In this document: in pieces, positions 13,073 to 59,842 of the stretch
How positions within the stretch are numbered: the stretch's first letter is position 1
How the letters are laid out: each line of letters begins with the position of its first letter
From: Ectothiorhodospiraceae bacterium 2226
GTDB lineage: Bacteria; Pseudomonadota; Gammaproteobacteria; GCA-013348725
Reading direction: 5' to 3'
Assembly (NCBI GenBank): GCA_013348725.1
Contig: CP054689.1
Location: 1-64,000 of the forward strand
Length of the DNA stretch: 64,000 nucleotides
The notes under the pieces: generated by a model
Told to the model about the DNA's origin: nothing
The model's input: the letters and a program-made list of their open reading frames with translations, nothing else
Databases searched by the model: none
Program-made: the position numbers and the translations under genes

Positions 13073-13076
<4 letters not shown>

Positions 13077-13747
13077 GGGACCGCCCCTTCTTCAGACGCC
13101 ATGGCCACCGGCGCGGTGGCACCGACCACGTCCAAACCGAGGGCCGCGCGCACCGGCGCGAAGGAGCGCCGGTGGATGGCGCAGGGGCCCAGCGCCCGCA
13201 GCGCCTCGAGGTGCATGGCAGTGGCATAGCCCTTGTGCTGGGCAAAACCGTAGCCTGGATAAGCCGCATCCAGCGCGGCCATTTCGGCATCGCGCGCGAC
13301 TTTGGCGAGGATGGAGGCGGCGCTGATGCAGGGCACGCGCAGATCGCCCTGCACCACCGCCTCGGAGGGACACGGCAGGTGCTCGGGGCAGCGGTTACCG
13401 TCCACCACGGCGTACTCGGGCACCGTCGCGAGCGCCTCCACTGCGCGGCGCATGGCCAGCAGGGACGCATGGAAGATGTTCAGGTGGTCGATCTCCTCCA
13501 CCTCGGCGCGCCCCAGCGCGCAGGCCAGCGCGCGCGCGCGGATCTTCACCGCCAGCGCCTCACGCTGCTCGGCGCTCAGTAACTTGGAGTCGGTCAACCC
13601 GCGGATGCGCGGGCGATCGGGCAGGATGACGGCGGCGGCGACCACCGGGCCCGCGAGCGGGCCGCGCCCGACCTCGTCCACGCCCGCGAGCAAGGTGACG
13701 CCGGAGGCGAAATCGAGTTGAAACTGCTGCGTTCTTCTTCGTGCCAT
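13073..13747 (-). CDS. rnhB: Ribonuclease HII
   Basis: Protein of 224 aa. RNase HII cleaves at single ribonucleotides in DNA and at RNA-DNA hybrids. The catalytic residues are visible as D24 and E25 (GVDEVGRG) and D117 (YAVVDGNRC), and the GYATAMH region follows. In most relatives lpxB lies directly upstream. Here a tandem-repeat array and a tRNA gene take that place, so the usual fabZ-lpxA-lpxB link is broken. The gene is the first of the minus-strand series running to truD. Confidence 0.95.
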
Positions 13748-14540
13748 CCGCGTCTCGATGCCTTCGGGTCGCTGCCACGCGGGGCGCGCGCCGTGCGCTT
13801 CTGTATGAACCTAGGTCTGAATCCATCCATCCGGGATGGCTCAGACCACGCTGCGCGAAAAGCGTGGTTTTCGCTTCGCTTCGTGATCAACGGCTTGGCA
13901 GCCGCCGATCACGGCGGCGCTGTTATAGGGTCTGAATCCATCCATCCTGGATGGCTCAGACCACGCTCAGCGAAAAGCGTGGTTTTCGCTTCGCTTCGTG
14001 CTCAACGGCTTGCAGCCGTCGATCACGGCGGCACATCCCTGTGCCGCGGGTAGGTCTGAATCCATCCATCCTGGATGGCTCAGACCACGCTGCGCGAAAA
14101 GCGTGGTTTTCGCTTCGCTTCGTGCTCAACGGCTTGCAGCCGCCGATCACGGCGGCACATCCCTGTGCCGCGGGTAGGTCTGAATCCATCCATCCTGGAT
14201 GGCTCAGACCACGCTGCGCGAAAAGCGTGGTTTTCGCTTCGCTTCGTGCTCAACGGCTTGCAGCCGTCGATCGCGGCGGCACATCCCTGTGCCGCGGGTA
14301 GGTCTGAATCCATCCATCCTGGATGGCTCAGACCACGGTGCGCGAAAAGCGTGGTTTTCGCTTCGCTTCGTGATCAACGGCTTGCAGCCGTCGATCACGG
14401 CGGCGCTGTTATAGGGTCTGAATCCATCCATCCTGGATGGCTCAGACCACGCTCAGCGAAAAGCGTGGTTTTCGCTTCGCTTCGTGATCAACGGCTTGCA
14501 GCCGTCGATCACGGCGGCACATCCCTGTGCCGCCTGTGCC
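13748..14540. repeat. Six-copy tandem array of hairpin-rich 115-124 bp units
   Basis: The array proper covers 13814 to about 14540. Units begin with GGTCTGAATCCATCC at 13814, 13929, 14053, 14177, 14301 and 14415. The first and fifth are 115 and 114 bp and end in GGCGGCGCTGTTATA; the others are 124 bp and end with GCACATCCCTGTGCCGC. Each unit holds consecutive inverted repeats: GGTCTGA/TCAGACC, CCACGC/GCGTGG, ACGGCT-tgc-AGCCGT, and in long units GCGGCACA-tccc-TGTGCCGC. Several frames stay open through the array, but the predicted peptides are shadows of the repeat. There are no unique spacers, so it is not CRISPR. The 66 bp between rnhB and the first unit show nothing else. Confidence 0.9.
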
Positions 14541-14557: not shown

Positions 14558-14647
14558 TGGCGGAGGGTCAGGGATTCGAACCCTGGAGGGGCTTTCGCCC
14601 CTGCTGGTTTTCAAGACCAGTGCCTTCAACCGCTCGGCCAACCCTCC
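14558..14647 (-). tRNA. tRNA-Ser (anticodon TGA)
   Basis: 90 nt including the encoded CCA. The 5' acceptor strand GGAGGGT (14647-14641) pairs with ACCCTCC before the G discriminator and CCA. The anticodon arm ends are TGGTC and ACCAGC-like around the loop CTTGAAAA, giving anticodon TGA, which reads UCN codons. A long variable arm (AGGGGC/GCCCCT) marks a class II serine tRNA. The T-arm has GGTTCGAATCC. The gene is transcribed towards the tandem repeat array. Confidence 0.97.
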
Positions 14648-57952: not shown

Positions 57953-57982
57953 CTGTTCTTCTGTCCCCTTGGCCGTTCATGA

Positions 57983-58005
57983 AAGGTCTGAATCGATCAG
58001 ACCTT
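57983..58005. other. Inverted repeat in the nrtA leader after the terminator
   Basis: AAGGTCTGA (57983-57991) and TCAGACCTT (57997-58005) form a perfect 9 bp stem with a five-base loop. It lies between the leader terminator and the nrtA start codon. The core GGTCTGA/TCAGACC is the same as that opening each unit of the tandem array at 13.8-14.5 kb. There is no U-tract after it. Confidence 0.8.
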
Positions 58006-58011
58006 CCTCAG

Positions 58012-59755: not shown

Positions 59756-59842
59756 GATGCCGCGGGCGGCGCGGGACGATGCCGCGGCGGCGCCGGGTGA
59801 TGGTGCGGGCGGCGCCGAGTGATGCTGCGGGCGGCACCGAGC
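59756..59842. repeat. Four tandem copies of a 21-22 bp GC-rich repeat
   Basis: Units start with GATGCCGCGGG, GATGCCGCGGC, GATGGTGCGGG and GATGCTGCGGG at 59756, 59778, 59799 and 59821, each followed by CGGCGC(G/C)GGG-like sequence. They lie about 100 bp upstream of the likely nasR start. The rest of this roughly 295 bp gap (59658-59952) has only GGGCGGAG/CTCCGCCC (59869-59887) as a further hairpin. Confidence 0.75.

Follow-up and report, generated by a model that had tools for sequence, protein, structure and literature searches.

The array and the question it raises

What kind of element forms the tandem array between rnhB and a tRNA-Ser gene of Ectothiorhodospiraceae bacterium 2226, how was it multiplied, and why is its folded structure retained? 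The array lies in the window, that is, the 64,000-nucleotide stretch analyzed here (contig CP054689.1, positions 1 to 64,000). Our overall explanation, to which we assign a probability of roughly 60%, is that it represents a locally amplified IS5-type MITE with a CsrA/RsmE-type hairpin core.

The preliminary description reported six near-identical units built from inverted repeats and located between these two genes, and our analysis arrived at the same number, composition and flanks (Table 1). The last unit stops at 14533 rather than at 14540, as given there; the description is otherwise accurate. The array units measure 114–124 bp, with successive spacings of 115, 124, 124, 124, and 114 bp. 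Each long unit consists of four hairpins (A, B, C, and D) and folds with z-scores of −5.1 on the plus strand and −7.1 on the minus strand, none of 200 shuffled sequences being as stable. The two hairpins described as perfect in most copies were recovered: the terminal GCGGCACA-TCCC-TGTGCCGC hairpin in units 2, 3, 4, and 6, to the exclusion of the short units 1 and 5, and GGTCTGA/TCAGACC in all six units. The stem of hairpin B is imperfect in its lower part in the window array. With units arranged head to tail and spacers absent, the locus is not a CRISPR array, and we also agree that it is not a coding repeat.

Table 1. Features of the array and its flanks in the window
Feature	Position	Strand	Details
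Tandem array, six units	13814..14533	+	A-B-C-D hairpin core, plus orientation
Unit 1	13814..13928	+	Short form without hairpin D; junction GGCGGCGCTGTTATAG
Unit 2	13929..14052	+	Long form
Unit 3	14053..14176	+	Long form, reference unit
Unit 4	14177..14300	+	Long form
Unit 5	14301..14414	+	Short form without hairpin D
Unit 6	14415..14533	+	Long form, hairpin D at its end
Hairpin A of unit 3	14053..14086		Left terminal repeat and its own inverse; minus-strand apex CCAGGATGG, GGA 14071-14069
Hairpin B of unit 3	14089..14118		GC..GCGAAAA-GCGTGG-TTTTCGC
Hairpin C of unit 3	14121..14151
Hairpin D of unit 3	14152..14171		Minus-strand GCGGCACAGGGATGTGCCGC, includes CANGGANG; GGA 14162-14160
rnhB	13073-13747	-	ORF; name from the preliminary description
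tRNA-Ser(TGA)	14558-14647	-

Copies in the home genome and across the class

The home genome, a single contig, measures 2.96 Mb. Searching its DNA with the unit gave 77 matches, and a covariance model, R1, built from 35 home-genome copies, identified 89 non-overlapping copies at 54 sites (E < 0.001), so that the element is not confined to the window locus. At 18 of the 54 sites, the copies are tandem, with two to six units each. Units of one array have private variants in common, such as AACGCC in L083 and CCAAGCG in L081, which indicates that the arrays grew locally. A fifth hairpin, E (GGGAAGCTCTGAATAAATCAGAGCTTCC), which is absent from the window array, is present in copies that stand alone (for example, L013, L030, and L053), and reduced forms consisting of A+D+E, A+E, or E alone are found in the home genome as well. 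Within the window, a solo terminal hairpin E (GAAAGGTCTGAATCGATCAGACCTTCC) at 57981-58007 is a relic of this family in its smallest form. At the junction of hairpins D and E, micro-expansions occur: short GTGCCTCT-like repeats separate D from E at the right end of the L082 array, and in L087 hairpin D is followed by repeats resembling GTGCCGCGA.

The four-hairpin core was detected with R1 in 55 of the 369 genomes of the class, spanning about 40 families, often in at least nine copies. A pattern scan of named genomes returned at least 118 stretches; among the matches listed, the titles were Gammaproteobacteria, Chromatiales, Methylococcaceae, or “Proteobacteria” throughout. The viral contigs, plasmids, and phages that we searched yielded no match. 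This distribution bears on the notion of a neutral satellite, under which the array would have expanded in tandem by chance and would be without effect. Locus-specific unit variants are what local duplication predicts, and the units decay freely; we nevertheless consider this account unlikely because it covers the array and not the conservation of the core across genomes.

The preliminary description did not recognize the family, and our searches found no named family either. All Rfam families stayed below their cut-offs on the element, and none was a fit even at a loose threshold, the matches being weak ones to the CsrB clan and scattered low-scoring, chance-like ones; a match to sX4 overlapped the tRNA and was rejected. 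A partial literature search, outside ISfinder and the MITE databases, produced no description of the element, so it may already have a name, and a literature sequence search with the element returned no bacterial-repeat subject among the matches listed.

Terminal repeats, target duplications, and IS5-family partners

In other genomes, the complete solitary element is about 150 bp long and is bounded by the terminal repeats GGAAGCTCTGAATAA and, outside them, by 4-bp target duplications of the type YTAR, in the layout YTAR - GGAAGCTCTGAATAA...hairpins...TTATTCAGAGGTTCC - YTAR. An exact 4-bp duplication flanks 29 of the 55 elements with readable ends, compared with a mean of 7.1 and a maximum of 15 in 2000 shuffles of the partners, and 26 of the 55 have YTAR on both flanks. 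A filled site in genome G276 (TATTAA-element-TTAACC) has matching empty sites in two sister genomes, TATTAACC in G168 and TACTAACG in G020, a comparison that rests on one locus; the product of the adjacent gene starts with MKKIEAVIKPF and is presumably P-II-like. A search for an empty site with L158 matched other repeats.

Transposases of the PF05598 family are encoded in 17 of the 34 element-bearing genomes examined. Genes of the IS5 family with the same ends as the element were identified in G261, G124, and G080 (NF033581, E-values of 3e-97 to 1e-105, for the three proteins scanned), the gene of G080 likewise lying between element-type ends, and PF05598 genes with such ends were found in G090 and G303. 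The ends of the G261 gene are GGAAACGCTGATTTATTCCC, with the YTAR-like duplication CTAA or CTAG, and an unusual CGCTGA end variant is common to the IS and the MITE of this genome. YTAR-like duplications also accompany the genes of G124 (TTAA, CTAA), G090 (TTAG), and G303 (ATAA). Given terminal inverted repeats (TIRs) that match those of insertion sequences in the same lineage, the 4-bp YTAR duplication, and the filled and empty sites, the element is almost certainly a MITE. Because IS5-family genes in several of the same genomes have matching ends, it would belong to a MITE superfamily mobilized in trans by IS5-type transposases.

The home genome and the window locus themselves speak against this assignment, the former by the lack of a matching transposase and the latter by the missing right end of the array. 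The home genome encodes two DDE_Tnp_1 proteins, and the ends of neither gene match those of the element; no PF05598 gene was found there, so that the copies in this genome may no longer move.

The preliminary description considered a compound REP-like element or a repeated structured RNA. An element of the first kind would be moved by a RAYT (Y1 HuH) transposase. The repeats are indeed palindromic, intergenic, and numerous, and the genome contains three Y1/RAYT-type (Y1_Tnp) genes. None of these is next to copies of the element, the nearest of the listed copies being at least 5 kb away, and few or no end-like motifs surround them; a target duplication is present where none is expected for REP/REPIN; and the TIRs, the 4-bp duplication, the empty site, and the IS5-family partners all fit a DDE element. 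We therefore regard a REP/REPIN-type origin as highly improbable.

Insertions often lie between convergent genes (17 of 41 copies) or at stop codons, with many copies no more than 12 bp from one, and terminator-like patterns match the plus strand of the window array. These observations would suit a bidirectional 3′-end element that stabilizes transcript ends or terminates transcription on both strands. Stop-codon placement, however, follows from target choice, since YTAR targets include TAA or TAG, and such a role leaves the CANGGANG apices described below unexplained; we judge it improbable.

The anatomy of the MITE suggests how the array may have arisen. In the full element, the left repeat is folded as A and the right repeat as E, the internal hairpins being B, C, and D and the YTAR duplications lying outside. 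Hairpin E is itself palindromic, so that its 5′ arm is a direct repeat, about 124 bp further on, of the 5′ arm of A. By slippage or unequal recombination, this pair of arms could generate A-B-C-D tandem arrays, and the window array would then represent local amplification of a non-autonomous element moved by IS5-family transposases supplied in trans. Slippage between the A and E arms does not account for the junctions of the short forms (GGCTGTTTGAAGG and the like).

A hairpin core under exchanged ends

The core is found under at least two terminal-repeat types besides the main one. In L325 and L326 (both in G009) and L175 (G162), the core hairpins B, C, and D recur together with re-formed A and E hairpins and GAGGGTGTCGCAAAAG-type terminal repeats; 5-bp duplications (TAAGA and TTCGA) flank L325 and L326. 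The other types are written GAGGGTGTCGC and ACAGG-GTTGAAAAA; ACAGG..GTTGAAAAA ends surround the same core in L337 (G312) and L361 (G066; 42-161). Occurrence under unrelated terminal repeats implies that the interior is kept while the ends are swapped, and the core behaves as a separate module.

Stem pairing is maintained. Within the home genome, changes on both sides were observed in 26 of the 47 pairs, a value reached in none of 500 shuffles. Across genomes, 45 of the 47 pairs covary, with 484 double-change cells compared with 105 after shuffling; the model was used to fit this alignment, but slid partners give at most 75 double changes. RNA of one strand should favor G-U, so that upkeep at the RNA level would show as an excess of G-U over A-C on the minus strand. 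The cross-genome alignment contains 58 G-T pairs and 56 A-C mismatches, that is, no strand bias, and the values in a second, genome-weighted set are 25.5 and 20.4; the symmetry holds in three alignments. Accordingly, the stems look maintained at the DNA level, through selection on both strands or palindrome correction.

This symmetry is one argument for a MITE in which the hairpins are purely DNA features, either cruciform or single-strand structures that aid transposition or palindromes perfected by template-switch correction, with the conserved loops serving as determinants for binding of the transposase or host proteins to DNA and CsrA playing no role. It is joined by the observations that both ends are palindromized terminal repeats even after a repeat swap and that orientation preference is absent. 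We treat this as a possible but somewhat doubtful reading: DDE transposases need the ends alone, yet B, C, and D persist across some 40 families, and the apices are conserved as the CsrA code would have it, the same two positions being free in both.

The loop of hairpin B is conserved as RYGYGRT between an A-run and a T-run in all copies, and its GCGTGG is complementary to CCACGC just upstream. An H-type pseudoknot between these segments would have loops of 0–1 nt, which is sterically implausible, leaving at best an alternative pairing.

CsrA-type apices on the minus strand

The apices of hairpins A and D retain GGA on the minus strand in 98% and 97% of genomes, respectively (weighted). The CsrA/RsmA/RsmE consensus, (A/U)CANGGANG(U/A), and the SELEX sequence RUACARGGAUGU are both quoted in PMC6849547. 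A CsrA/RsmA-binding RNA is expected to display GGA in hairpin apices within (A/U)CANGGANG(U/A) or CAGGAUG, and the minus-strand apices of A and D are in line with this. Genome-weighted frequencies along the D apex are C.98, A 1.0, N.63, G.98, G 1.0, A.99, N.64, and G.99, so the apex reads CANGGANG, with the two N positions alone free; the stem pairs next to it vary at 12–20%. This motif occurs in 92% of D hairpins on the minus strand, and the A apex fits C[AC]NGGANG in 93%, again on the minus strand only. Neither apex motif was found on the plus strand or in B, and at most 4% of C hairpins contain one (for CANGGANG, 4% of C hairpins, as against 0% in B and 0% for the plus strand). The apex alignment was derived from model-based searches with no selection for loop patterns, the model itself containing the loops. 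When the window array was folded, the minus strand presented six GGA in hairpin loops (0.88 in shuffled sequences, maximum 3) and the plus strand none. Among the weak Rfam matches in the arrays were those to RsmV (window array and L083) and RsmW (L082), all on the minus strand of the element, with E-values of 0.06–0.5; these CL00106 matches, at 13.7–28.4 bits, do not reach the gathering scores of 52–100.

By their sequence, the minus-strand apices of A and D resemble CsrA-binding sites. A minus-strand transcript would present two CsrA/RsmE-type hairpins, and copies within transcripts, arrays above all, may bind or titrate CsrA. We consider this the likeliest reason for retention of the core, with minus-strand transcription, CsrA binding, and any benefit all predicted from sequence; whether the MITE carries a CsrA payload is, in our estimate, an even call. 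The repeated structured RNA considered in the preliminary description would thereby take a more specific form, that of CsrA-type hairpins on the minus strand. Read-through from the tRNA-Ser gene, which precedes the array at a short distance on the minus strand, would produce the GGA strand. No promoter belonging to the array itself was found in the window. Besides the lack of strand bias in the wobble pairs, further observations speak against a CsrA role. Several of the arrays lie behind a gene from which they would be transcribed as the plus strand, and the orientation of the element relative to neighboring genes shows no bias. The presence of csrA does not discriminate, with 45 of 48 good element-bearing genomes encoding it and 280 of 314 in the class. 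In the home genome, GGA in D is kept in 27 of 35 copies, and older copies lose it, indicating that most copies are not individually under selection.

Relationship to known repeats and CsrA-titrating RNAs

The usual picture of bacterial MITEs is that of IS remnants whose interior holds little. In the present element, the interior is the conserved part, with four hairpins, compensatory changes, and occurrence across some 40 families under at least three kinds of terminal repeats. The element resembles IS5-family MITEs in its terminal repeats, which are like those of co-resident ISs, as well as in the 4-bp YTAR duplication, length of about 150 bp, noncoding nature, and empty site; it differs from them in the conserved four-hairpin interior that recurs under unrelated terminal repeats, the palindromized ends, the class-wide spread, and the CsrA-type apices. 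By description rather than by alignment, ERIC, Correia/NEMIS, and the Rickettsia palindromic elements are set apart by their ends and architecture. They are likewise palindromic intergenic repeats of 100–150 bp, and NEMIS transcripts have been proposed to be processed as RNA (PMC2229807). REP, BIME, and REPIN sequences with RAYT are also high-copy intergenic palindromes, sometimes clustered (PMC2817692, PMC3116915), but the element differs from them in having a target duplication and terminal repeats and no link to RAYT. The BrickBuilt MITE of Porphyromonas gingivalis similarly contains a tandem array, of a 23-bp minisatellite (PMC4596501), whereas here the whole 124-bp hairpin core is repeated.

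With the CsrB/RsmX/Y/Z/V/W sponge RNAs (CL00106), the element shares several hairpins with GGA in the loop on one strand, and the weak RsmV and RsmW matches. Unlike these RNAs, it occurs as scattered, mobile copies and not as one gene, and it scores far below gathering scores; no promoter or terminator was identified for it. None of the literature searched linked CsrA and MITEs, and a review of prokaryotic MITEs mentions neither CsrA nor hairpins. If the GGA apices do bind CsrA, transposition would spread sites for a global regulator, tandem expansion would offer a simple route to sponge RNAs such as CsrB or RsmZ, and mobile DNA would both spread and evolve CsrA regulation, the element making the origin of CsrA-titrating RNAs accessible to testing. 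Tentatively, class-wide transposable elements may carry paired CsrA-binding hairpins, swap terminal repeats and transposases, and, in some genomes, multiply into CsrB-like sponge arrays.

Other repeats and structured elements

Three further observations concern sequences distinct from the hairpin element. Within the window, a 22-bp tandem repeat in four copies (GATGCCGCGGGCGGCGCCGAGT) lies at 59756-59841, among long ORFs on both strands. Another repeat family, a 123-bp repeat (L158:925-1047 and L365) accompanied by about 40 short repeats of 25–40 bp, occurs alongside the hairpin element and is common to G261 and G149. A guanidine-I riboswitch aptamer (89.8 bits, above the gathering score) is located about 2 kb from one array, L082, at L082:111-209 on the minus strand (G000, about 1396110-1396208).
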